Positions 2,457 to 37,490 of a stretch of DNA of 47,070 nucleotides are shown here, in pieces. Source of the stretch: Prevotella sp. (GTDB lineage: Bacteria; Bacteroidota; Bacteroidia; Bacteroidales; Dysgonomonadaceae). The stretch covers positions 1 through 47,070 of the forward strand of contig JAITVV010000062.1 of NCBI GenBank assembly GCA_031285625.1, read 5' to 3'. A program made the translations under genes and the position numbers. Numbering within the stretch: the first letter of the stretch is position 1; every line of letters starts with the position of its first letter. Below the pieces are notes generated by a model. It did no database searches. It was not told the DNA's origin and saw only the letters and a list, made by a program, of their open reading frames with translations.

Positions 2457-4487
2457 ATGAAAAAAATAGTATTACTGATTCTATCACTTATTGCAATAAC
2501 GGCGGTTCAGGCCCAGGAACCAACCTCATGGACAGTAAAACTGGTAGATAAAGGAAATAGTGAAGTAGAACTGACTGCTTCGTTTCGTATAGACCCTACA
2601 TGGCATATATTTGATATTACTATCCCTGATAACGGGCCAATGCCAACTACTATTTCAATAGATAATCTGAAAGGGGCGACCAAAGTAGGGAATCTAAAAG
2701 TTGTAAATTCCAAGTTGAAGAGGAAATATGATGAAATATTTCAGATGGAATACGGCTATTATGAAAATCAGGCCACATTTGTTCAAACCCTTAAAATAAC
2801 CGATAAGGCCGCATTTGTGCTCGAAGGAGACCTTCGTGGGCAGGTATGCAGTGAAATTGACGGGCAGTGTATTCCTATAAAAGTAGGTCTGGATTTTAAA
2901 TCTAAAGATTTGCCTGCTACAGTAGTTGCTGCGGGTGGAACAGCAACAGAAAATATATCCGCAACAGATACTCCGGGTTTGATTGCTGTTGACTCTCTTG
3001 CATTATCAGCACCCGAAACGTCTGCAAATGTAAGTAATGAGACCCTTTGGACTCCGGTAGTAGACAAGATGAAACCATATGGCGCTGAAGATAATGCTTC
3101 AGAGTCTTTATTCTGGATTTTCCTTGGAGGATTTGGAGGTGGATTGATTGCTTTACTTACACCTTGTGTATGGCCTATGATTCCAATGACTGTAAGTTTC
3201 TTTTTGAAACGTAATAAGAAAAATAAAGGCAAAGCAATAAAGGATGCTGTAACATATGGTTTGGGAATTATATTGATATATGTTGCTTTAGGATTAATAA
3301 TAACTGCCGTGTTTGGTGCAAGTGCGTTAAATGATTTGGCTACGAGTGCTATATTCAATTTATTGTTCTTTGCTTTACTGGTCGTATTTGCTATATCGTT
3401 TTTTGGTGCTTTTGAAATGGTATTACCATCATCCTGGACTAACAAGATGGACCAGAAAGCTGATTCTACTACAGGGATTATCAGTATTTTCTTTATGGCA
3501 TTTACATTGGCTCTGGTGTCATTCTCCTGTACAGGGCCTATTATAGGTACACTATTAGTACAGGCAGCGGGGTCGGGTAGTATCGTTGCCCCTGCGATCG
3601 GGATGTTCGGATTTGCTGTTGCATTAGCTATACCATTCTCCCTGTTTGCAATTTTCCCATCCTGGCTCGAAAGTATGCCAAAATCCGGAGGATGGCTTAA
3701 CTCGGTGAAGGTGGTATTAGGTTTCCTTGAGTTGGCTCTAGCCCTTAAATTCTTGTCTGTTGCCGATCTGGCTTATGGTTGGGGGATTTTAGACCGCGAA
3801 GTATTCCTTGTATTATGGATTGCTATTTTTACTCTGTTGGGTGTTTATCTGTTAGGAAAACTAAAATTGCCACATGATAGCGATTTAAAACATGTGTCAG
3901 TTCCGCGTTTGTTTATGGCAATTATATCATTTGCTTTTGCAATATATATGGTTCCTGGATTGTGGGGTGCACCGTTGAAAGCAATCAGTGCTTTTTCTCC
4001 ACCTCTTAACACACAGGATTTTAATCTGTATAAAGGTGAGGTACATGCCAAGTTTGACGATTATGAGGCCGGAATGGAATATGCCCGTAAAAACAATAAG
4101 CCTGTGATGATAGATTTTTCCGGTTATGGTTGTGTAAACTGTAGGAAAATGGAAGCTGCAGTATGGACGGATGTTCGTGTGAAACAAATACTGGAAAATG
4201 ACTATGTGCTGATTACTCTTATGGTAGATGATAAGAAAAGCCTGCCGGAAGTAATAGAAGTACAAGAAAATGGTAAAACATCAAAACTTAAAACCATAGG
4301 GGATAAGTGGAGTTATCTGCAACGGCATAAATTTGGTACTAATTCTCAGCCGTATTATGTATTGCTGGATAGTAAAGGAGAACCTATTGGTCCATACTAT
4401 GTATATGATGAAGATGTACCTAAATATCTTGATTTTCTGAATATAGGTCTCAATAACTTTAAGAAAGTAAAAGAAGAAGTAAAATAA
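2457..4487 (+). CDS. Thiol:disulfide interchange protein, DsbD family
   Basis: Proteins of this family carry electrons from cytoplasmic thioredoxin across the inner membrane to keep periplasmic thiols reduced. The order is a signal peptide (ends near VQAQ, residue 20), an N-terminal periplasmic DsbD-like domain (about 25-150), a linker, a CcdA-like membrane domain of about eight helices (about 215-510), and a C-terminal thioredoxin-like domain. The membrane cysteine pair is C237 (LTPCVWPM) and C358 (SCTGP). The thioredoxin active site is C559-V-N-C562. All three redox regions are therefore intact, although the N-terminal cysteine pair of Escherichia coli DsbD is not obvious. The closely following mazG may be cotranscribed despite a hairpin between them. 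Confidence 0.92.
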   Translation: MKKIVLLILSLIAITAVQAQEPTSWTVKLVDKGNSEVELTASFRIDPTWHIFDITIPDNGPMPTTISIDNLKGATKVGNLKVVNSKLKRKYDEIFQMEYGYYENQATFVQTLKITDKAAFVLEGDLRGQVCSEIDGQCIPIKVGLDFKSKDLPATVVAAGGTATENISATDTPGLIAVDSLALSAPETSANVSNETLWTPVVDKMKPYGAEDNASESLFWIFLGGFGGGLIALLTPCVWPMIPMTVSFFLKRNKKNKGKAIKDAVTYGLGIILIYVALGLIITAVFGASALNDLATSAIFNLLFFALLVVFAISFFGAFEMVLPSSWTNKMDQKADSTTGIISIFFMAFTLALVSFSCTGPIIGTLLVQAAGSGSIVAPAIGMFGFAVALAIPFSLFAIFPSWLESMPKSGGWLNSVKVVLGFLELALALKFLSVADLAYGWGILDREVFLVLWIAIFTLLGVYLLGKLKLPHDSDLKHVSVPRLFMAIISFAFAIYMVPGLWGAPLKAISAFSPPLNTQDFNLYKGEVHAKFDDYEAGMEYARKNNKPVMIDFSGYGCVNCRKMEAAVWTDVRVKQILENDYVLITLMVDDKKSLPEVIEVQENGKTSKLKTIGDKWSYLQRHKFGTNSQPYYVLLDSKGEPIGPYYVYDEDVPKYLDFLNIGLNNFKKVKEEVK

Positions 4488-4490
4488 AAA

Positions 4491-4516
4491 AGAAAGCAGG
4501 TTAATCCCTGCTTTCT
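4491..4516 (+). terminator. Hairpin between dsbD and mazG
   Basis: AGAAAGCAGG and CCTGCTTTCT form a perfect 10-bp stem around the 6-base loop TTAATC. The T tract after it is weak, so it may only partly terminate or may protect the dsbD mRNA end. Confidence 0.6.
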
Positions 4517-4534
4517 CTAAATAGTATAAGCGGT

Positions 4535-5317
4535 ATGCATACAAAACAACAAAAGATGGAAGCCTTTGGACGGCTTCTTGATATAATGGATGAACTTCGA
4601 GTGAAATGTCCATGGGATGCTAAGCAAACAAACGAAAGCCTTAGAACAAATACGATAGAAGAAGTATATGAGCTCTGTGAGGCCATTATTCAGAATAGTG
4701 ATGAGGCAATAAAGAAAGAACTTGGGGATGTACTCTTACATGTTGTTTTCTATTCAAAGATAGGAGAGGAGAAAAGTACTTTTGATGTTGCAGATGTATG
4801 TAATGCCCTTTGTGATAAATTGATATTTCGTCACCCGCATGTTTTTGGAGACGATGTTGCTAAGACAGCCGGGGAAGTGGAGAAATCATGGGAACAAATA
4901 AAACTGAAAGAAAAGGGAGGTAACAAAACTATTCTTGAGGGAGTGCCTGCATCCTTACCATCTATAGCAAAAGCTCACCGTATACAAGATAAGGCCCGTA
5001 ATGCCGGATTTGACTGGGAAAAGAAGGAAGACGTATGGGATAAGGTTTCAGAAGAATTTCAGGAACTAAAAAGTGAAGTGTCAAAAATGGATGATGATAA
5101 GATGGAGGCTGAATTTGGCGATATGTTTTTTAGTCTGATCAATGCTGCCCGTTTATACAAGATCAATCCTGACAATGCATTGGAACGTACAAATCAAAAA
5201 TTTATACGGAGGTTTAATTATATAGAGCAGGAAGCTAAAAAAGAGAATAAGAGCCTCAAAGATATGACTCTTTCAGAAATGGATGCTTTGTGGAATCAGG
5301 CTAAGAATATGGAGTGA
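4535..5317 (+). CDS. mazG: Nucleoside triphosphate pyrophosphohydrolase MazG
   Basis: MazG hydrolyses (d)NTPs to the monophosphate and pyrophosphate, which cleans the nucleotide pool and, in E. coli, lowers ppGpp. The 260-residue protein has the two-domain all-alpha form. The N-terminal domain begins with KCPWDAKQT and carries the metal-binding EEVYE motif near residue 43. A second acidic helix, ELGDVLLHVVF, follows. The C-terminal domain repeats the pattern with EEFQEL and EFGDMFFSLINAARL (about 185-210). This is the usual length for the long MazG form. It stands 47 bases after dsbD in the same direction. Confidence 0.95.
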   Translation: MHTKQQKMEAFGRLLDIMDELRVKCPWDAKQTNESLRTNTIEEVYELCEAIIQNSDEAIKKELGDVLLHVVFYSKIGEEKSTFDVADVCNALCDKLIFRHPHVFGDDVAKTAGEVEKSWEQIKLKEKGGNKTILEGVPASLPSIAKAHRIQDKARNAGFDWEKKEDVWDKVSEEFQELKSEVSKMDDDKMEAEFGDMFFSLINAARLYKINPDNALERTNQKFIRRFNYIEQEAKKENKSLKDMTLSEMDALWNQAKNME

Positions 5318-5416
5318 GTATATCAAGCTATTTTCAGAAAATATTTTAATACCTGATTAAACTATTTCTATATATTCATGTCTGACTAATATAAACTAAT
5401 CAAACAACATAAGGTT

Positions 5417-5722
5417 ATGAAGTATATATTGACAATTATTATCCTGAGTACAATGATGTTTGTCTCCTGTGCATCAATGAGCAATCAGATGAATGCATCC
5501 AAAAACATGACTAAGGTCGAATTGAATATGACGAAGCAGGAGGTAACAAAGATTATGGGGAAAACATACGAAGTGGTTGGTAGCCGTAATACCCAGGAAG
5601 GATCGGAAGAAACGATCGGGTACCATGACGCTTATAATGATATCTATTTGCTTACATTCTTGAATGGAAAGTTAGTCGAATTTCACAAAGAGTGGTTGCC
5701 TAAAGGCACTCCTGTAAACTAA
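5417..5722 (+). CDS. Small lipoprotein with BamE/SmpA-like fold
   Basis: The 101-residue product starts with a lipoprotein signal (lipobox VSCAS, lipidated C18), so it should be anchored in an envelope membrane. The rest resembles the SmpA/OmlA (BamE-like) fold: an amphipathic helix with the phrase LNMTKQEVTKIMG (about 36-48), then beta strands ending with LLTFLNGKLVEFHKEW. In proteobacteria this fold occurs in an accessory protein of outer-membrane protein assembly, but many small lipoproteins share it and I do not claim that role here. The stop codon lies inside an exact 23-base tandem duplication. The strong hairpin that follows serves both this gene and the convergent one. Confidence 0.75.
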   Translation: MKYILTIIILSTMMFVSCASMSNQMNASKNMTKVELNMTKQEVTKIMGKTYEVVGSRNTQEGSEETIGYHDAYNDIYLLTFLNGKLVEFHKEWLPKGTPVN

Positions 5723-5756
5723 GACAAAGTATACCTGTAAACTAAGACAAAGTATA
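5711..5756 (+). repeat. 23-bp exact tandem duplication over a stop codon
   Basis: The unit begins CCTGTAAACTAAGAC and occurs twice without a mismatch, at 5711-5733 and 5734-5756. The first copy contains the last three codons and the TAA stop of the BamE-like lipoprotein gene. The second copy is non-coding. It looks like a recent slippage or repair event. Confidence 0.95.
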
Positions 5757-5761
5757 GAAAT

Positions 5762-5804
5762 AAAAAAGAAGGGTTGTATACTTTTACACAACCCTTCTTT
5801 TTTT
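5762..5804. terminator. Bidirectional terminator
   Basis: A 16-bp perfect stem (5762-5777 with 5788-5803) encloses a 10-base loop. It has A-rich and T-rich flanks on the two sides, so it can terminate both the lipoprotein gene on the plus strand and the convergent gene on the minus strand, whose stop codon begins at the last bases of the stem. Confidence 0.9.
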
Positions 5805-7171
5805 CATATATTTTTACTTGGTGGAATATATAGATCTTCAGGTTTAAGCTCACATTCTTTTATCATTTCTATTGAATATTCCATTTTTCCGATATTCGGA
5901 TCTGCATTATTAGTGCCAAATGTGAATTTAACACCTGATGCTTTAGCTTGTTTTATAAGTCTGGCAGATGGTATTTTATATCGATTATTTATTTCAAGTG
6001 CTACATTGTGTTTAACACAGGCATCCACGATTCTTTGCATCCTTTCTGTAGTCCATAAAGCTTCATATTCGGGCATTAACCGGTCGGGAATAAAGGTCGG
6101 ATTAACGAAGATATTGATAGGTTCGCTTGATATAATCGTTACAGCGCGATCTACAAGCATGTCCATAAATTGCTCTTTATCATCAACAAATGTTTCCTCA
6201 TCTATCCATATGCGTTGTCTGCGACCTTTGTTGTCTGTCCATGTAAGGGCATCAGTAAAGCGATAGTCAAATTTACTCATTGCCTCTTCTGTGAATAGTG
6301 TTAACCATTCGCGTCCTTCAGCCTGCATAGGCAGTAGAAATGGCTGATGTTGCATTGTATCAAGGAATGTATATATGTCTGCATCTTTTGTAACAGGAAA
6401 CTTTAACCCACAATTTGGGGCTATGCCATAAGTAATGCCATATTTACGCGAAACAGCAGCTGCCTGTGCTTTTGTCCAGCCCTCTTTGAGGTGTACATGG
6501 CTGTCTATAAGCGGGTAGTTTTCTTGCTGCAAACGGATTATATCATCATTCTGTTCATCAATATCAGTTGTGACTTTATTGTCTGCAGACAATGATTTTA
6601 TACTGATGTTTCGGAACTCTATAGGTGAATCAGAGTAACTTATAAAAGCCAGATTGCCTTTACTTAAAAATCGCCTTGCATATTTTTCTGTCCGATATGG
6701 TTTTTCAGGTTCAACATATTCTGTTACCCAAACATTGTTAATCCAAACATTGATAAGGTTACCGGATACCTGAATTTTTACAGGAAACCAATTATTATTA
6801 TCTGCTGTACGTTTGCCAAAATTACGGACAGCTGACAAACTACCCGATTTTCTCCATTCGGTGGGCTCTATATTGTTATTTATAAGTACTTCGTACCCTT
6901 TTGAACTTGGTTGGGAGCTATTGGTATGAAACCATATGCCAGCAATAGCACCATGGGAGGTATTGCACTCCAGTTCCAGTTCAAAATTTTTATATTCTTC
7001 ATTATATCCGGCTACAGATTCATTGCCGGATAACAGTAAGACACTGTCTTTTATCTGTGCATTATTCGTGAAAGTCCAGTCGGACGATTTACTTAGTATG
7101 TTCTTTTCACCTGTATTATCACAAGATAATAATAAGAATGGCAGAACAAGGAGTAGAATTAAATTTTTCAT
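5804..7171 (-). CDS. Lipoprotein with DUF1080-like and PHP/amidohydrolase-like domains
   Basis: The signal peptide ends in a lipobox (LLLSCDNTG, C17), so the 455-residue product is probably envelope-anchored. Residues about 25-195 form a beta-rich domain like DUF1080 (3-keto-disaccharide hydrolase, concanavalin-like fold). Residues about 215-450 begin with IDSHVHL, a metal-binding DxHxH-type motif (D223, H225, H227), and continue with a TIM-barrel-like pattern including EINNRYKIPSARLI and FTFGTNNAD, as in PHP or amidohydrolase enzymes. The fusion suggests a metal-dependent hydrolase acting on a sugar derivative, but the substrate is unknown. The gene is separated from the polysaccharide locus by rnpB and has its own promoter candidate. 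Confidence 0.75.
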   Translation of the reverse strand: MKNLILLLVLPFLLLSCDNTGEKNILSKSSDWTFTNNAQIKDSVLLLSGNESVAGYNEEYKNFELELECNTSHGAIAGIWFHTNSSQPSSKGYEVLINNNIEPTEWRKSGSLSAVRNFGKRTADNNNWFPVKIQVSGNLINVWINNVWVTEYVEPEKPYRTEKYARRFLSKGNLAFISYSDSPIEFRNISIKSLSADNKVTTDIDEQNDDIIRLQQENYPLIDSHVHLKEGWTKAQAAAVSRKYGITYGIAPNCGLKFPVTKDADIYTFLDTMQHQPFLLPMQAEGREWLTLFTEEAMSKFDYRFTDALTWTDNKGRRQRIWIDEETFVDDKEQFMDMLVDRAVTIISSEPINIFVNPTFIPDRLMPEYEALWTTERMQRIVDACVKHNVALEINNRYKIPSARLIKQAKASGVKFTFGTNNADPNIGKMEYSIEMIKECELKPEDLYIPPSKNI

Positions 7172-30698: not shown

Positions 30699-31514
30699 AT
30701 GAAACTTTTTTTTAAATCTGCAACATTATTGATTGCAGTACTTACACTTACTTTTGCTACACAAAGCTGTAGTTCTGTAAAACCTGTTGAAAAATCTCAG
30801 CTAGAAGATGGTGCATGGGTTTTGAAATCACTCAAGGGCGAGGATGCTAAAACTGCATTTACAGGAAAAATGCCGGATCTGACTTTTGATTTTTCAAAAA
30901 ACATGTTATCAGGAAATGGCGGTTGTAACCGTTATACCGGTAGCTTTACTTTGACTGAGGAAAATATCTTTTCAGCTCCAAATTTGGCTGCGACTATGAT
31001 GGCTTGTTTACCTGGCAATAAGGAACCTCAATTCTTAGCAGCTTTGTCTTCACCAAACCTTGTTGTTTCACTTACTAAAGAGGGAGTCCTTACTTTCTCT
31101 GAGGGAAATAAGGTCGTTCTTGAATTTGAGAAATCTCAAGTTACGGCTAAATCAGCAGATGCGGATATCGTAAATGCTGAAAATTTGGCTGGTAAATGGA
31201 ATCTTACCTCGATTTCGGGAGGTGATATCGCTACCTTATTTACAGATAAAGTGCCTACAATGGAAATATCAAATGATGGAAAAGTTTTTGGCAATGCCGG
31301 ATGTAATACATATCGTACAGCTTATACACTGGCCGAAAATACAGTGACATTTGGTCCGGTTATGTCTACAAAGATGGCATGTTCCAGCCTGAAAGGAGAG
31401 GGCTTATTTACATCTTTTCTTTCTACTCCGCTTCAAGCCGGATTAAATGGTGATAAACTTACTTTCCTTAAAGAAGGAAATATTGTTCTTGAATTTACGA
31501 AGGTTATAGAATGA
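30699..31514 (+). CDS. Lipoprotein with two META domains
   Basis: The product (271 residues from this ATG) has a lipoprotein signal (ATQSCSSVK) and two consecutive META (DUF306, HslJ-like) domains. The first spans about 33-145 with the core GNGGCNRYTGSF, and the second about 155-270 with the core GNAGCNTYRTAYTL. Both also keep the MACL/MACSSL phrase. META domains occur in envelope and heat-shock proteins such as HslJ, and their function is not settled. An in-frame TTG two codons upstream is less likely as the start. It is the last gene before a terminator. Confidence 0.88.
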   Translation: MKLFFKSATLLIAVLTLTFATQSCSSVKPVEKSQLEDGAWVLKSLKGEDAKTAFTGKMPDLTFDFSKNMLSGNGGCNRYTGSFTLTEENIFSAPNLAATMMACLPGNKEPQFLAALSSPNLVVSLTKEGVLTFSEGNKVVLEFEKSQVTAKSADADIVNAENLAGKWNLTSISGGDIATLFTDKVPTMEISNDGKVFGNAGCNTYRTAYTLAENTVTFGPVMSTKMACSSLKGEGLFTSFLSTPLQAGLNGDKLTFLKEGNIVLEFTKVIE

Positions 31515-31537
31515 TTTGAGAAAAAATAATAAATTTC

Positions 31538-31571
31538 AGGGTTGTATTTGTTTGAAATACAGCCCTTTTTG
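31538..31571 (+). terminator. Terminator after the META gene
   Basis: AGGGTTGTATTT pairs with AAATACAGCCCT (12 bp, one G-T) around a 5-base loop and is followed by TTTTTG. It separates this operon from the ECF/DUF4252 operon. Confidence 0.9.
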
Positions 31572-31600
31572 TTTTCAGTGATATTTTTTTATTTTTTGCT

Positions 31601-31626
31601 GTAACAAATTTTATAGCTGCTTCGTC
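31601..31626 (+). promoter_or_regulatory. ECF-type promoter of the DUF4252 operon
   Basis: GTAAC at 31601-31605 is followed, after 17 bases, by CGTC at 31623-31626. AAC-type -35 and CGTC -10 boxes with 16-17 bases between are the general signature of ECF sigma-factor promoters. No TAnnTTTG box is near. The first start codon of the operon is about 65 bases downstream, and the operon encodes an ECF sigma factor, so autoregulation is likely. Confidence 0.65.
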
Positions 31627-31691
31627 TTAGTAATTGAAAGCAGATGATAGCACACATCAGACGATTTATTAACAATTATAAGAGAAGAGTT

Positions 31692-32162
31692 ATGAAAAAG
31701 TATTTAATTTGTTTAATATTGGTGATTGCATTGAGCCAGACAGCATATAGTCAGAGTTTAGATAACCTATTGAACACTGTTTCAAAAACAGAGAATATTG
31801 AGAAAGTAAAAATTGGACGTTTTCTGATGTCTGTAGGAAAAACCTTTGGAGGAGTAGGCAATATGCCGGTTGCAAGAGGTGTACACTCAATGGAAGTCTA
31901 TGATTTATCTGGCTGTGATTCGAACTTTAAACGTAATCTTGCAGAGCAGATTGATAAGCTGAAAGATGGTGATGGTTATGAAACATTGATATTAGCAAAA
32001 GATAAAGGTGATAATGTCAGGATCATGATGAAGAAGAAAAAAGATGTAATTAGTGATATGGTTATTTTATGTCTTAGCGATAACGACCCGGCAATCGTAA
32101 AATTTAAAGGAAAAATTAAAGAAGGTGATATCGCTGAATTGGTACAGAAATATAATAAATAA
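31692..32162 (+). CDS. DUF4252 protein, copy 1
   Basis: A secreted protein (156 residues from this ATG) with a cleavable signal peptide (TAYSQ, residue 21). It carries the DUF4252 pattern: a central GYETLILAKDKGDN segment and a terminal strand IVKFKGKIKEGDIAELV. An in-frame ATG at 31644 would add 16 residues that hide the signal peptide, so I chose 31692. Family function is unknown. It differs from its neighbours in a Gly-rich segment near residue 50. It is the first gene after the ECF-type promoter, and its product likely acts in the periplasm or envelope. Confidence 0.8.
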   Translation: MKKYLICLILVIALSQTAYSQSLDNLLNTVSKTENIEKVKIGRFLMSVGKTFGGVGNMPVARGVHSMEVYDLSGCDSNFKRNLAEQIDKLKDGDGYETLILAKDKGDNVRIMMKKKKDVISDMVILCLSDNDPAIVKFKGKIKEGDIAELVQKYNK

Positions 32163-32199
32163 TACTATAAATAAGTAAACACAATTAAAAGCAAAAATT

Positions 32200-32706
32200 A
32201 TGAAAAGGTACATGTTCTTATTCGCATTAACTATTATGACAGTTCAGTTTACATTCGCTCAGGATTTAAACCAATTGATGAACGAATTGTCTAAAATTGA
32301 AGGAGCTCAACATCAGGTTGTAGATAAAGAAATGTTGAATACAACGATGAATGCTGCTATGGAAGCAGACTCTACCGGACAACTAAAGTCAAAGATGCCG
32401 GCGTTTATGCAAAAGTTGGAATCAATAGAAGTTGTTGCAATAGAAGAATATGCACCTGAGGTAAAAGAGCAGTTTCTGAATCAGATTAATAGTTTTAGTG
32501 ATGGGAACGGGTATGAGACCTTGATGTTTGTAAAAGAGGAAGATAACAATGTACGCATAATATCATACAAAGACGGAGATCAGATACTAGGTGTTTTTAT
32601 ACTTGTTTTAGATGGGGAAGATGCTGTTATCGTAAAGATGTCCGGAAGTCTAAGTGAGTCGGATTTGACTGATATAATTAATGAGCAAAAGAAAAATAAC
32701 AACTAA
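32200..32706 (+). CDS. DUF4252 protein, copy 2
   Basis: The second paralogue has 168 residues with a signal peptide ending at FAQ (residue 21). It shares DLNQLMNELSKIEGAQHQVVDK at the mature N-terminus with copy 3 (in short form DLNNLMDELAKVESAQ), the central YETLMFVKEEDNN, and the terminal IVKMSGSLSESDL. Copies 2 and 3 are the closest pair in the array, which suggests a recent duplication. There is no lipobox, so the product is probably a soluble periplasmic or secreted protein. Confidence 0.8.
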   Translation: MKRYMFLFALTIMTVQFTFAQDLNQLMNELSKIEGAQHQVVDKEMLNTTMNAAMEADSTGQLKSKMPAFMQKLESIEVVAIEEYAPEVKEQFLNQINSFSDGNGYETLMFVKEEDNNVRIISYKDGDQILGVFILVLDGEDAVIVKMSGSLSESDLTDIINEQKKNNN

Positions 32707-32717
32707 ATAATGCAATC

Positions 32718-33197
32718 ATGAAAAAAATACTATTTACATTTTTATTAGTTTTTGTAGGACAGGTTATCTATGCTCAGGATCTGAACAATCTAATGGATGA
32801 ACTGGCAAAGGTTGAATCGGCTCAGAAACAGGTTGTAGATAAAGCTATGCTTGCACAGGCAATGAATGATGAGGACGAAGATGACAAAATGCCTGGGTTT
32901 ATGAGTAAAGCTGATTCTGTGATTGCAGTTATTGTACGCAGCTGCCCTCAGGATATAAGTGAAAAGATATCTGCAGGAATTAATTCATCCGAAAAAAGCG
33001 GACAATATGAAACATTGATCTCTTTAAAAAAAGAGGATAAAATAATTTCGATGTTATCTGAAAAAAGGGAAGCCGACACCGACATATATGTTTATGTTGC
33101 GAGCGGAGACAATATTGTGTTCGTGAAGATAAAAGGACAATTTACGGCAGAGGATCTGCAAAATATGGTTAAAGAACAAATGGAGGGAGTAAACTGA
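32718..33197 (+). CDS. DUF4252 protein, copy 3
   Basis: The third paralogue has 159 residues, a signal peptide ending near YAQ (residue 20), and an acidic insert (NDEDEDDKM, about 51-59) absent from the others. It keeps the central QYETLISLKKEDK and the terminal VKIKGQFTAEDLQNM. It lies 11 bases after copy 2 and 12 bases before copy 4, so all four are surely cotranscribed. Confidence 0.8.
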   Translation: MKKILFTFLLVFVGQVIYAQDLNNLMDELAKVESAQKQVVDKAMLAQAMNDEDEDDKMPGFMSKADSVIAVIVRSCPQDISEKISAGINSSEKSGQYETLISLKKEDKIISMLSEKREADTDIYVYVASGDNIVFVKIKGQFTAEDLQNMVKEQMEGVN

Positions 33198-33209
33198 TAA
33201 ATAAAAAAT

Positions 33210-33710
33210 ATGAAAAGAAATATTTTAATATTGTTTTTAATTTTTATTTCGGGCCAAGTAGCAACTGCTCAGGAACATATTCTTGATAGATTGATTAAAG
33301 ACTATGCTAAAAAGGAGAATGCAATTCTTAGAGAGATGGATCGTACAATTCTTTTAGAACCGATAGAAAAAGCGATAAGAATGGATTCGACTAAATCAGA
33401 TGCAGACATAGAGAAACTCTATACAGAATATCCATTTGATAAAGTAACAATATTGACGTTGAAAGAATCACCTAAAGATATCTGGTCCGAATTTGCAGAA
33501 GATGTGAAAGCATATAATGATGATGAGAATTACAAGACATTATTAAAAATAAAAAAGGATGGTTTAGTTAATATTATAACCAAAAAAGGCGAATCATTTG
33601 TATCTGAATTGTTTTTAATTATACAGAAAACCGATGATGTTGCAATTGTGAAGATCGAAGGATGGCTAAAAGAGTCAGATATAGAAGAACTTACTGAACA
33701 ATATAAATAA
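33210..33710 (+). CDS. DUF4252-like protein, copy 4
   Basis: The most divergent of the upstream four, with 166 residues and a signal peptide ending at ATAQ (residue 21). The central motif is NYKTLLKIKKDG in place of YETL. The terminal strand IVKIEGWLKESDIEELTEQYK (in part) aligns with copy 1. The stop is one base from the ATG of the sigma-factor gene, which points to coupled translation. I assign it to DUF4252 by this alignment and by position. Confidence 0.7.
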   Translation: MKRNILILFLIFISGQVATAQEHILDRLIKDYAKKENAILREMDRTILLEPIEKAIRMDSTKSDADIEKLYTEYPFDKVTILTLKESPKDIWSEFAEDVKAYNDDENYKTLLKIKKDGLVNIITKKGESFVSELFLIIQKTDDVAIVKIEGWLKESDIEELTEQYK

Positions 33711-33711
33711 T

Positions 33712-34209
33712 ATGGATACGGAAACTTTCAAAAAAGTCTTTCTTCCATACCATCAGAAATTATACAGGGTTGCTTACCGGATAGTACAAGATGCAGCTAA
33801 TGCAGAGGACATAGTGCAGGATACATTTATCAAACTTTGGAATAAAAGAGACGAATTAGATAGCATAGATAATACAGAAGGGTTTGCTATTATTATACTT
33901 CGCAATACTTGTCTCGATTATCTGAGAAAAACAAAAAATGATTACCATACCTCCTATGAGGCAGATATACCGGAAAGCGTATCCTTATCAGCACAGATAG
34001 AATTACGGGATAATGCACAGTATGTGAAGAATTTGATAAATAAGCTGCCCGAACAACAGCGACAGGTACTGATGCTGAAACACTGGGATGGATATTCTGA
34101 TGAAGAGATAGAAGGAATGACAGGACTAAGTCCGGGAAATATAAGGGTTATCCTTTCACGGGCAAGAAAAACAATAAAGGAACAATACAGTAAAATAGAA
34201 CAAAGATGA
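33712..34209 (+). CDS. ECF-family RNA polymerase sigma factor
   Basis: The 165-residue protein has the two ECF domains. Sigma2 (about 8-75) contains YRVAYRIVQDAANAEDIVQD and sigma4 (about 105-160) contains LPEQQRQVLMLKHWDGYSDEEIE and the helix GNIRVILSRARKTIKEQY (each in part). It should recognise the GTAAC/CGTC-type promoter at 31601-31626 and so raise its own operon. It overlaps the next gene by four bases (ATGA), the usual arrangement with an anti-sigma factor. It is not accompanied by a FecR gene, so it is not of the iron-transport type. Confidence 0.93.
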   Translation: MDTETFKKVFLPYHQKLYRVAYRIVQDAANAEDIVQDTFIKLWNKRDELDSIDNTEGFAIIILRNTCLDYLRKTKNDYHTSYEADIPESVSLSAQIELRDNAQYVKNLINKLPEQQRQVLMLKHWDGYSDEEIEGMTGLSPGNIRVILSRARKTIKEQYSKIEQR

Positions 34210-34766
34210 ATACAAATGAAATAAAAAAACTGATAGATGCTTTCTACAATGGTGAAACTTCAGTAGAAGAGGAACAACTATTACTGAATTATTTCAATGG
34301 TGGAGATATTGCAGAAGAGCTGCTTGAAGAAAAAGAAATTTTCCTTCAAATGTATAATGCAGCTCCGGCTGATGTTCCTGTGGGTCTGGAGTCAAAATTG
34401 AATAATCTGATTGATGAACTTGCATCGAAGGAGACTGTAAAGATTGAATTAAAACCTCAGTCAAACAAACGGCAGATGTGGGTGAAAATAGGAAGTGTTG
34501 CGGCAGGTGTAGCCTTACTGATTACGGCAGGTGTTTATTTTAATAAAAAAGCAGATCCGGTAACCCCTCCATTGGCTCAGGGGCAAACCGAAACCGTAAA
34601 TGCAGAGGACGAACAAAAGATAAAAGAAGCTCAGGAGGCATTAGTGTTATTATCCTCAAAATTTAATAAAGGGATGGATCAGCTTGCTGTAGTTGAAACT
34701 AACTTGGATAAAACAAACGAAATAATAAATAAAACTTTCAACCGTAAAAAAGACAAGGAATTATGA
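34206..34766 (+). CDS. Single-pass membrane protein, probable anti-sigma factor
   Basis: No named domain is clear. The 186-residue protein has a helical, acidic N-terminal part (about 1-80; FYNGETSVEEEQLLLNYF), a basic stretch, one membrane helix (about 94-112; VAAGVALLITAGVYF) and a periplasmic coiled-coil-like tail (about 125-180). This layout, with the sigma-interacting part in the cytoplasm, and the four-base overlaps with both neighbours fit an anti-sigma factor that senses the envelope. The N-terminal part is like those found beside ECF sigma factors in Bacteroidota, but it lacks a recognisable zinc motif. Function is inferred from context. Confidence 0.65.
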   Translation: MNTNEIKKLIDAFYNGETSVEEEQLLLNYFNGGDIAEELLEEKEIFLQMYNAAPADVPVGLESKLNNLIDELASKETVKIELKPQSNKRQMWVKIGSVAAGVALLITAGVYFNKKADPVTPPLAQGQTETVNAEDEQKIKEAQEALVLLSSKFNKGMDQLAVVETNLDKTNEIINKTFNRKKDKEL

Positions 34767-35230
34767 AAATAAAAGGATTATTAATCGCAGTTGTGTTCAT
34801 GCTCAGTGCAGTAGCTGTGCAGGCACAAGACAAGATGTTCGAGAAGTTTTCGGATAATAAGGACATAACAACTGTGTATATTTCAAAAGCATTGCTTTCG
34901 ATGGTTCCCAATATGGATGCCGGAGGTGTAAATGTAAAAGGCCTGGCCAATAAACTGGAAAAGCTGGAAATATATACGAGTGAAAACAAAGGAGCTATGA
35001 AAACAATGGCATCAGAAGCTCAGGTAATGAAGAAGAACAAAGCTTATGAAACTCTGATGTCTGTAAAAGAAAAAGATCAGATTATTGATTTCTATGCGCA
35101 ACAAGACAGCAATGGCAAATTTAAAGATCTGATCATGTTTGTTAATCAGCCGGATGAATGTACCGTTATACGTATAGTGGGGAGTTTTACAATGGATGAT
35201 ATACAAGGTGTAATGAATAGCGTTAAATAG
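34763..35230 (+). CDS. DUF4252 protein, copy 5
   Basis: The 155-residue protein has a signal peptide ending at VQAQ (residue 22) and the DUF4252 landmarks AYETLMSVKEKDQ and VIRIVGSFTMDDIQGVM. It is separate from the first four and follows the probable anti-sigma gene with a four-base overlap. Coupled translation with the anti-sigma gene suggests that it may be the copy that works directly with the sensor, while copies 1-4 are outputs. That division is inference. It is the last gene before a strong hairpin. Confidence 0.8.
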   Translation: MKIKGLLIAVVFMLSAVAVQAQDKMFEKFSDNKDITTVYISKALLSMVPNMDAGGVNVKGLANKLEKLEIYTSENKGAMKTMASEAQVMKKNKAYETLMSVKEKDQIIDFYAQQDSNGKFKDLIMFVNQPDECTVIRIVGSFTMDDIQGVMNSVK

Positions 35231-35249
35231 TTTTAAAGATTAAATGGTA

Positions 35250-35290
35250 AATATGGCTTCGGATAATGTTATCCGAAGCCATATTATTTT
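35250..35290 (+). terminator. Terminator of the ECF/DUF4252 operon
   Basis: A stem of about 14-16 bp (35250-35265 with 35270-35285, with a small loop) is followed by ATTTT. Its position rules out the long upstream start for the following peptidase gene, because that start would lie in front of the hairpin. Confidence 0.9.
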
Positions 35291-35351
35291 GACAAAAAGA
35301 AATATCTGTCTATATTTAACAAATTTTGTAGGTATCAAAAAGAATCTAAAT

Positions 35352-37490
35352 ATGAAAAAGGCATTATTTTTTACTTTAAGTTTATTTATACTTATGTCGT
35401 GTACAACAAATAATAAAGGAGTATTTAAACAAGCTAACCCTCCTATAGCTGAAAAAAAGGAGCATCTGAGAATTATCCATGGTGATACAGTTCAGGATGA
35501 TTATTACTGGATGTATGACTATTTTGGTAAAGGACCGGATAGTACACTTGTCGTTAATTACCTGAAAGCAGAAAATGCTTATCTGGATACAGTGATGAGT
35601 GAGACTGCCGGATTTCAGAAAGCTTTATTCAATGAAATGAAGGGGCGAATAAAAGAAACTGACGAGAGCGTCCCTGTATTTAAAAACGGCTATTATTACT
35701 ACACCCGTACAGAAGAAGGTAAGGAATATTATAAATATTGTAGAAAGAAAGGAAGTCTCGAAGCACAGGAAGAAATATTACTCGATGTGGATAAAATGGC
35801 TGAAGGACACTCATATTATGCTATTGGCGGAGTGAGTATTAGCGAAGATAATAAATTGATGGCATATGGTGTTGATGAGATTAGCCGTAGACAATATACC
35901 ATCTATTTCAAAAATTTGGAAACAGGAGAGATTTACAAAGAATCTATTCTAAATACCAGTGGTGGTTCTACATGGGCTGACGATAATAAGACTATTTTCT
36001 ATACATCAAAAAATCCGGTAACTCTTCTCTCCGAAAAAATCAAACGTCATGTGTTGGGCACGGATGTATCTGCTGATGTTACCGTATATGAAGAAAAAGA
36101 TAAAAGCAACTATATCGGCGTGGGTAAAACCAAAAACCGGAAATATATCTTTATTCAGTCTCAGGCAACTATGTCTTCTGAAACATTTTATATAGAGGCT
36201 GATAAACCAACCTCTGCATTCAAATCGTTTCAACCGAGAGTGAAAGATGTATTGTATGATATAACTCCTTTAGAAGATAAGTTTTTGATCACTACAAATA
36301 TGGATGCGAAGAACTTTAAAGTGATGCAATGTCCCTTAGATAAAACCGGAGTTGAAAACTGGACTGAATACATACCTCACCGTGAGGATGTACTACTCGA
36401 AGGTATAGATGAATTTAAAGATTTTATTGTGATAGAAGAACGTAAGGAAGGTCTTATGCAGTTGCGTATCCGTCATTTGAGTGATGGAAAAGAACATTAT
36501 ATCGATTTTGGTGAACCAACATATATGGCATACACTTCTTCTAATCCTGAGTATGATAGCCAGGTTGTAAGATATGGTTATACATCACTTACTACTCCTA
36601 GCTCGACTTTCGATTATAATATGCAGGCACAGGAGAAAACTCTGATGAAAGAACGTGAAGTAGTAGGTGGTTATAATAAGGAAAACTATCAGACTGAAAG
36701 ACTATATGCTACAGCTAAAGACGGGACCAAAGTGCCTATCTCATTAGTTTATAAGAAAGGATTTAAGAAAGATGGTACATCTCCACTACTACTTTATGGA
36801 TATGGTAGTTATGGAGCCAGTATGGATGCTTCTTTCAGTAGTAACAGACTAAGCCTTTTGGATCGGGGTTTTGTGTATGCAATAGCCCATATACGTGGAG
36901 GGCAGGAGATGGGTCGCCAGTGGTATGAGGATGGCAAACTGCAGAAAAAGAAAAATACATTTACGGACTTTATTGATTGTGGAGAATTCTTAATTGCCGA
37001 AAAATATGCAGGCAAAGGACATTTATATGCTTCGGGTGGTAGTGCCGGAGGCTTATTAATTGGTGCTGTTATTAATATGAAGCCTGAGATATGGAATGGC
37101 GTAATTGCAGCTGTTCCTTTTGTAGATGTTGTAAATACAATGTTGGATGAAAGTATTCCTCTTACTACAAATGAATTTGATGAATGGGGAAATCCTAAAA
37201 ATAAAGAGGCATATGATTATATGAAGAGTTATAGTCCTTACGAGAATGTGGAGAAAAAGAATTATCCGAATATACTTGTTACTACAGGTTTGCACGATAG
37301 TCAGGTGCAGTACTTCGAGCCTGCTAAATGGGTAGCAAAGTTAAGAGATATGAAAACTGATGATAATATACTGTTGCTAAAGACAAATATGGAATTCGGT
37401 CATGGAGGTGCTAGCGGACGTTTCGACTATTTGAATGATGTAGCTTTAGAATATGCTTTTCTGTTTACTCTGGAAGGTATTGATAAATAG
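35352..37490 (+). CDS. Prolyl oligopeptidase-family (S9A) lipoprotein, oligopeptidase B-like
   Basis: The enzyme cuts short peptides after basic residues (oligopeptidase B branch) or proline. The start at 35352 gives a lipoprotein signal (LMSCTTNN, C18), so the 712-residue product is probably anchored in the envelope. The N-terminal propeller (about 60-430) gates the active site. The C-terminal alpha/beta hydrolase domain has S564 (ASGGSAGGLL), D649 (GLHDSQVQ) and H684 (EFGHGGASG), a complete triad. IAHIRGGQEMGRQWYEDGK is a phrase typical of the PtrB branch. An in-frame ATG at 35244 would run through the preceding terminator and is rejected. Confidence 0.92.
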   Translation: MKKALFFTLSLFILMSCTTNNKGVFKQANPPIAEKKEHLRIIHGDTVQDDYYWMYDYFGKGPDSTLVVNYLKAENAYLDTVMSETAGFQKALFNEMKGRIKETDESVPVFKNGYYYYTRTEEGKEYYKYCRKKGSLEAQEEILLDVDKMAEGHSYYAIGGVSISEDNKLMAYGVDEISRRQYTIYFKNLETGEIYKESILNTSGGSTWADDNKTIFYTSKNPVTLLSEKIKRHVLGTDVSADVTVYEEKDKSNYIGVGKTKNRKYIFIQSQATMSSETFYIEADKPTSAFKSFQPRVKDVLYDITPLEDKFLITTNMDAKNFKVMQCPLDKTGVENWTEYIPHREDVLLEGIDEFKDFIVIEERKEGLMQLRIRHLSDGKEHYIDFGEPTYMAYTSSNPEYDSQVVRYGYTSLTTPSSTFDYNMQAQEKTLMKEREVVGGYNKENYQTERLYATAKDGTKVPISLVYKKGFKKDGTSPLLLYGYGSYGASMDASFSSNRLSLLDRGFVYAIAHIRGGQEMGRQWYEDGKLQKKKNTFTDFIDCGEFLIAEKYAGKGHLYASGGSAGGLLIGAVINMKPEIWNGVIAAVPFVDVVNTMLDESIPLTTNEFDEWGNPKNKEAYDYMKSYSPYENVEKKNYPNILVTTGLHDSQVQYFEPAKWVAKLRDMKTDDNILLLKTNMEFGHGGASGRFDYLNDVALEYAFLFTLEGIDK

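Follow-up and report, generated by a model that had tools for sequence, protein, structure and literature searches.

What is an extracytoplasmic function (ECF) sigma factor doing amid five genes for putatively exported proteins of a single family, DUF4252? The question is raised by seven plus-strand genes in Prevotella sp. contig JAITVV010000062.1, here called the window (the whole stretch of 47,070 nucleotides that was analysed). Two hairpins enclose four DUF4252 genes, the ECF sigma factor gene, a gene for a single-pass anti-sigma-like membrane protein and a fifth DUF4252 gene. This content and order, given in a preliminary description, were confirmed by open reading frames (ORFs), sequence, Pfam and folding. 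The locus is probably an autoregulated ECF sigma operon of envelope-stress type, belonging to the PG0214/GFO_1088 family, and the DUF4252 proteins would be its main output. Established at the level of sequence are the layout, a conserved promoter-like element, the occurrence of this element before DUF4252 genes unlinked to a sigma gene, and a tie between the anti-sigma tail and DUF4252. Operons of this kind are widespread and partly published; the promoter-element and tail evidence is new.

Recurrence of the gene order

Two sets of loci were compared. The first comprised 61 loci from DUF4252 searches, the window included, 53 of them with a sigma gene; the second comprised the 80 nearest sigma relatives among the matches listed in a genome collection with a single representative of each species. 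Pooling gave 131 loci unique by sigma. Because 53 of the pooled loci had been found through DUF4252, only the 80 sigma-chosen loci are free of that bias, and among those listed matches DUF4252 was present in the locus in 64/80; in one of these, L195, it was found no nearer than about 0.8 kb past the anti-sigma gene.

In the pooled set, a DUF4252 gene was located 3′ of the anti-sigma gene in 112/131 loci, and at least one copy lay upstream of the sigma gene in 67/131, the remaining 64/131 having none upstream. All loci with an upstream copy also had a downstream copy, save two cut by contig ends. The gap from the anti-sigma gene to DUF4252 was 20 bases or less in 83/102 cases and exactly -4 in 27/102. 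The window, with four, had the most upstream copies; L062 had three and the others at most two. Recurrence of this layout, both throughout the order and outside it, is more than chance, and gene order in other Bacteroidales, proposed earlier as a yardstick for this locus, bore out the arrangement.

Among 295 genomes of the order, 129 had DUF4252; both families passed their cut-offs in 115, DUF4252 only in 14, the sigma family only in 15 and neither in 151, with E at most about 1.5e-37 as the sigma cut-off, in agreement with a tally of 130. Seven genomes of the source genus, taken to be Dysgonomonas (G019, G296, G298, G300, G303, G305 and G317) had no PF14060 match, and since four of these are given as 99% complete, the operon appears to be dispensable or lost there. 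The layout is common in the phylum, and the window copy is unusual mainly for its five DUF4252 proteins.

A promoter-like element before linked and unlinked DUF4252 genes

Counts of the promoter-like element GTAAC-N16/17-CGTC were made in 128 of the 131 loci, three being left out for short upstream sequence. It stood ahead of the first gene in 58/128 operons, compared with 6 of 6582 tiles cut from those loci, and before none of 238 other genes. The spacer was N16 in 29 loci and N17 in 29, and no occurrence was found at any other spacing from 10 to 24. Operons with DUF4252 accounted for all of these (58/111, and 0/17 of those without). In Dysgonomonas, the element preceded 17 of 18 sigma-bearing operons, the exception, L068, being an operon of a second type described below.

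The element was also found where DUF4252 has no linked sigma gene. Six of 11 such loci have it (L071, L100, L119, L239, L241 and L245), and for this reason DUF4252 looks like output. The half operon L067, at a contig end and with the element, was kept out of the 11; among those counted, contig ends lie within about 0.6–2 kb in L085 and L119, and L089 has a sigma-like gene on the opposite strand, some 2.7 kb distant. L119 holds two adjacent DUF4252 genes on a stretch with no sigma gene, each with a GTAAC/CGTC element of its own. That DUF4252 genes, linked or unlinked, share the promoter-like element of the sigma operon is a new observation, drawn from sequence comparison.

A strict form of the element, GTAACAAA-N14-CGTC, had one site in the source genome and two in the backwards control. 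In 25 genomes of the genus it had 23 sites (20 in the backwards control), 17 of them before the operon, one before an unlinked DUF4252 gene and five elsewhere, so that 18/23 front DUF4252 genes. This distribution gives no sign in the genus of a regulon beyond the DUF4252 genes, although a weaker motif would be missed. In the source genome, GTAAC-N16-CGTC was also seen 22 and 58 bases before ORFs for secreted proteins (L128 on contig C61 and L134 on C95). These two sites, which are among the looser-motif sites treated below, have N16 where the window has N17; they may belong to another ECF sigma.

Eight further loci were added, one from the source genome and seven from the genomes with the sigma family only (7/15). 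The source genome locus, L258 (G000:C35:134500-144500, 3989-6249), is a second operon with genes for a sigma factor, an anti-sigma-like protein, a divergent DUF4252 protein and a probable outer-membrane barrel. Its sigma has 35% identity to the window sigma and scores 179.8 bits against NF058625, its anti-sigma-like gene matched no family above a cut-off, and its DUF4252 and barrel genes scored 21.6 bits against a cut-off of 23.9 (97.9% in a profile comparison) and 25.4 bits against 27, respectively. L258 lacks the GTAAC/CGTC element and instead carries GTTAC-N16-CGTT 35 bases before the start, a sequence also present in L068 and L174 among 11 loci looked at. An iterated profile detected a divergent DUF4252-like gene in L258, L259, L262, L263 and L265, and none in L260, L261 and L264. 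L260 and L261 have sigma and anti-sigma genes behind GTAAC/CGTC with no DUF4252 after them, a switch without DUF4252 output. The window operon had been described as self-contained. This holds for the five Pfam-level copies and for the strict promoter, which has a single site in the genome, but the second operon, and the unlinked DUF4252 genes elsewhere that share the promoter, narrow that description.

The sigma factor and the anti-sigma tail

The window sigma, of about 165 amino acids, has sigma regions 2 and 4 by Pfam and passes NCBIfam NF058625, which is named after PG0214 and GFO_1088 (Table 1). Among named sigmas, the one from Dysgonomonas mossii is closest (81% identity). Alignment covered 31 of the 53 sigmas, and the best solved match of the sigma profile was SigW (E 7e-22).

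The anti-sigma-like protein has 186 residues, with a single hydrophobic stretch that begins near residue 92 and is followed by about 76 residues; the C-terminal outer-membrane beta-barrel of long anti-sigma factors of the EcfO-Reo/Dma type was not found in a tail of this length. No Pfam family matched the protein above its cut-off. The NCBIfam anti-sigma factor NF052375 gave 25.4 bits (E 1.2e-5), below the cut-off of 100, and was matched at E up to 0.1 by 28 of 56 relatives. The window protein was aligned with 55 relatives picked by length and hydrophobicity. Among solved proteins the anti-sigma profile matched RsiW best, at a non-significant E of 0.027, and the single protein alone misses it. 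The matched RsiW and SigW belong to one structure entry.

The tail had a median length of 74 residues in the 102 loci with DUF4252. A helix-like motif, written from the alignment, was present in 64 of these and in 0 of 17 loci without DUF4252. A tail profile trained on four fifths of the data gave at least 5 bits in 99/102 held-out tails from DUF4252 loci (median 54.2) and in 2 of the 17 from DUF4252-less loci, of which L193 is truncated at a contig end; the folds were random and not split by clade. By these profiles, the tail type is tied to DUF4252 presence, a tie new in this analysis.

Other tails were seen as well. Ten sigma relatives without adjacent DUF4252 (L155, L159, L160, L164, L167, L171, L177, L185, L195 and L207), largely from genera that we take to belong to Cytophagales, have long anti-sigma tails that by eye look HEAT-repeat-like, which would combine the same sigma class with a different sensor part. 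Four Tannerella/Parabacteroides-type loci without DUF4252 (L157, L209, L213 and L214) have another, GSYIxRxGVR-like tail type in common.

Weighing output against regulation

Several observations weigh against the view of DUF4252 as the output of an envelope-stress sigma. The envelope-stress link comes from papers on other species, the step from this sigma to this promoter is one that we infer, and the loci without DUF4252, on which the tail comparison depends, come from few clades. The strict element was absent from 70/128 operons and from 5/11 unlinked DUF4252 loci (L065, L085, L089, L114 and L244). It is present in L260 and L261, whose genomes lack PF14060 and which have no detectable DUF4252; counting the three later DUF4252-less loci, the element is found in 2/20 such loci, a figure that replaces 0/17. 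In L260 and L261 it would therefore drive sigma and anti-sigma, any output being other genes. A wider regulon sought in the source genome with a looser motif was not supported, with 14 sites against 34 in the backwards control.

Some of these observations would suit another ECF sigma as the reader of the element, the linked sigma then controlling different distant genes. The source genome is rich in ECF sigmas (11 scored matches and 57 first-look candidates), and the many operons lacking the strict element fit the same idea. Against it, the element marks the operon of this sigma across families, even the two without DUF4252, the paralogous operon of the source genome carries another element, and in published work on Prevotella bivia and Porphyromonas gingivalis such gene sets shift along with the sigma that they contain. 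We regard control by another sigma as very improbable.

The co-variation data bear on a second alternative, in which the DUF4252 proteins are mainly regulatory: RseB-like co-anti-sigma factors or signal receptors, with the upstream copies setting the threshold as decoys or as alternative sensors. Such a role would be in keeping with the tightly coupled order of sigma, anti-sigma and secreted protein and with the tail type that accompanies DUF4252. Distance matrices were compared for 60 loci having all parts, with the sigma background removed. The tail and the first upstream copy weakly co-varied (partial r 0.207, p 0.002), as regulation might predict, but co-variation of the tail with the downstream copy was not significant (partial r 0.093, p 0.14). 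The downstream and first upstream copies strongly co-varied (partial r 0.586, p 0.002); all of these p-values are too small because the loci are related. These values do not favour gene 5 as the particular partner of the anti-sigma factor, which also tells against the view taken here, and speak for DUF4252 copies that evolve together.

The unlinked DUF4252 genes with the element, as expected of output, argue against a mainly regulatory role, as does the lack of a sequence relation to a solved protein or a second Pfam family. Searching solved proteins by profile yielded only four weak matches to DUF4252 (best E 0.06), no second Pfam family recurred among 96 DUF4252 members (the next best occurred in 3/96 at E up to 0.5), and no RseB/LolA-type relative was matched at sequence level. 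On balance we consider mainly regulatory DUF4252 proteins unlikely, if worth keeping in sight. The preliminary description had offered sensors, decoys or effectors as roles. The element at unlinked genes directly favours effectors; the tail co-variation leaves the sensor and decoy roles hypothetical, and the downstream copy may act as a sensor.

Relationships among the DUF4252 proteins

All five DUF4252 products exceeded the PF14060 cut-off of 23.9 bits (Table 1), and none reached the cut-off of 150 for NF058626, the GFO_1090 family (21.0 to 82.0 bits). The Y(E/K)TL core said to be common to them was found in 5/5. The (I/V)(V/I)(K/R) strand, also said to be common to all, was present in strict form in only 4/5, gene 3 having FVK; a G follows two residues after the final strand in each. 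By a crude pattern test, a lipobox was present in 18/227 DUF4252 copies and in 0/5 of those in the window. Matches in L085, L088 and L098 lie inside longer ORFs (509, 363 and 319 aa), possibly as fusions or double domains.

The alignment contained 66/69 downstream and 25/35 upstream copies plus the five of the window, and the tree takes in the window, L062–L081 and ten further loci (Dysgonomonas and some other Bacteroidales). Downstream copies clustered in a clade of 30 (support 0.90), with upstream copies elsewhere; the clade also includes the upstream copies of L099 and L101 and the unlinked L065. Gene 1 fell in a first-gene group (support 0.986). The five window copies are not uniform: set beside those of other genomes, genes 1–4 sorted among the upstream copies and gene 5 among the downstream ones. 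Since two upstream copies and one downstream copy are usual in the genus, these groupings point to the five-copy operon as a local expansion, and we propose that the extra upstream copies arose here by duplication.

The five genes might also be an ordinary local duplication cluster whose copies have no distinct roles. Copy number does vary among loci, gene 4 lacks a close counterpart, and genes 2 and 3 belong to one group. The largely separate grouping of upstream and downstream copies across several families, with L099 and L101 as exceptions, is hard to square with such a cluster, which appears quite unlikely.

A model for the operon

The genes form a tight unit, and its ECF-type promoter is conserved ahead of related operons. 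Autoregulation is therefore probable, and to this extent the positive feedback proposed earlier is sustained. Its stated reason, that effector genes precede the sigma gene, does not carry over to the loci without an upstream copy, and because the anti-sigma factor is encoded in the operon with the sigma, a negative arm exists too. In the model that we infer, the membrane anti-sigma factor would hold the sigma until an envelope signal arrives; freed sigma would then read the GTAAC/CGTC element and raise the whole operon, anti-sigma included, and the DUF4252 proteins would be exported to the periplasm or beyond. The downstream DUF4252 protein, nearly always present and often translationally coupled to the anti-sigma factor, is probably a core component. 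RseB and CpxP feed back on their systems elsewhere, and as a parallel the DUF4252 protein may, tentatively, feed back on the anti-sigma factor. The upstream copies would be an expandable effector set, enlarged here by duplication.

A broader proposal is that the sigma has been kept across much of Bacteroidota mainly for DUF4252 as both output and periplasmic input, with a fixed downstream partner of the anti-sigma factor, a variable upstream set for tuning or diversifying what is sensed, and paralogues within one cell kept apart by distinct promoters. L260 and L261, with the element and no DUF4252, weigh against this, and we consider it rather unlikely.

DUF4252 is widespread in the order and changes in transcriptomes of oral species. 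The promoter signature would tie it to one sigma class even where unlinked, a direct route to the regulon and to the role of the protein, and the window operon, naturally expanded to five copies, offers a case for examining differences between them.

Features and borders of the operon

The features are listed in Table 1. Spacings along the operon were 37, 11, 12, 1, -4 and -4 bases, matching the gaps of 1–37 bases and two 4-base overlaps described before. Although its ORF can be extended to 31644, gene 1 most likely starts at 31692, because genus counterparts have 155–161 aa and a signal peptide results. For the peptidase gene downstream, whose ORF was listed from 35244, the most likely start is 35352, which would make the second hairpin intergenic. 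That hairpin was missing from the list of the first hairpin scan and was found by separate folding.

Table 1. Features of the sigma/DUF4252 operon and its borders (window positions).
Feature	Position	Strand	Evidence
T-tract hairpin, probably terminating the upstream META-domain gene	31538..31566	+	Fold -16.2 kcal/mol
Putative ECF promoter GTAAC-N17-CGTC	31601..31626	+	Kept before related operons
DUF4252 gene 1, first-gene upstream group, signal peptide	31692..32162	+	Pfam 64.7 bits; tree
DUF4252 gene 2, second upstream group	32200..32706	+	Pfam 55.0 bits; tree
DUF4252 gene 3, extra copy of second group, nearest L062 and L079	32718..33197	+	Pfam 35.5 bits; tree support 1.0
DUF4252 gene 4, divergent upstream copy without close counterpart in tree	33210..33710	+	Pfam 39.7 bits; tree
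ECF sigma factor, PG0214/GFO_1088 family	33712..34209	+	NF058625 195.1 bits (cut-off 130); SigW best solved match
Single-pass anti-sigma-like protein, short tail	34206..34766	+	Weak NF052375 match; hydrophobic stretch; tail profile
DUF4252 gene 5, downstream group; start overlaps anti-sigma stop by 4 bases	34763..35230	+	Pfam 91.1 bits; tree
16-pair hairpin, probable terminator	35250..35285	+	Fold -24.5 kcal/mol

Independent internal promoters had been named as evidence that would undo the single-transcript view. The housekeeping -33/-7 consensus, or its -7 part alone, was unmatched in 31401-35400 on the plus strand, which is a weak test. A scan with the sigma-70 consensus, which according to an excerpt of one report is unsuited to promoters of the phylum (PMC7366714), gave 23 sites against 25.0 in shuffles.

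Comparison with known systems

RpoE-RseA-RseB consists of a sigma, a single-pass anti-sigma factor and a secreted third gene, an order that the window shares; DUF4252 differs in having no detected sequence relation to any solved protein. In the excerpts of the publications used, EcfO-Reo and Das/Dma of Bacteroides and Phocaeicola likewise combine an ECF sigma with a membrane anti-sigma factor and with lipoprotein products (NigD). They differ in an anti-sigma factor that reaches the outer membrane through a C-terminal beta-barrel, and DUF4252 is not named. EcfO was weighed as the same system and, on these publications, dropped. CirYZ-Spy of Phocaeicola vulgatus also combines sigma, anti-sigma and a co-transcribed periplasmic protein, but its product is described as resembling the Spy chaperone (PMC13114119, in part). 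BT1572 and BT1197 are called ECF114 in an excerpt of a further report (PMC12596196). Excerpts of the publications that name the DUF4252 family give it no function.

Closer counterparts are found in P. gingivalis, again from portions of the reports. By published gene descriptions, PG0985-PG0987 encode a sigma, a hypothetical protein and a DUF4252 protein, in this order, and are called an operon whose genes change together (PMC9045371, PMC10101095; also PMC10434189); unlike the window, the published listings show no upstream DUF4252 gene. Expression of PG0985-0987 is reported as lower in two sphingolipid-pathway mutants (PMC9045371), and PG0214-0218 and PG0985-0987 as higher in FLL361, taken to be the PG_0686 mutant, with a greater increase under peroxide (PMC10101095). 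Another report names PG0987 as a vesicle protein (PMC5378342), and a 2007 listing of what is specific to Bacteroidales includes PG0216-0218 (PMC1887533). PG0214-PG0218 resemble the window in the sigma that gave NF058625 its name, a putative anti-sigma factor and DUF4252 (PMC10101095), and differ in two beta-barrel genes at the end (PMC13227078); their gene content would seem to resemble the second operon, L258, better than that of the window.

The window order itself, judged by locus tags in an excerpt of the report, is that of PREBIDRAFT_RS05910-RS05890 in P. bivia: DUF4252, DUF4252, sigma, hypothetical protein and DUF4252, with two upstream copies to the window's four. These genes are reported as downregulated together in a mixed biofilm (PMC11410844).

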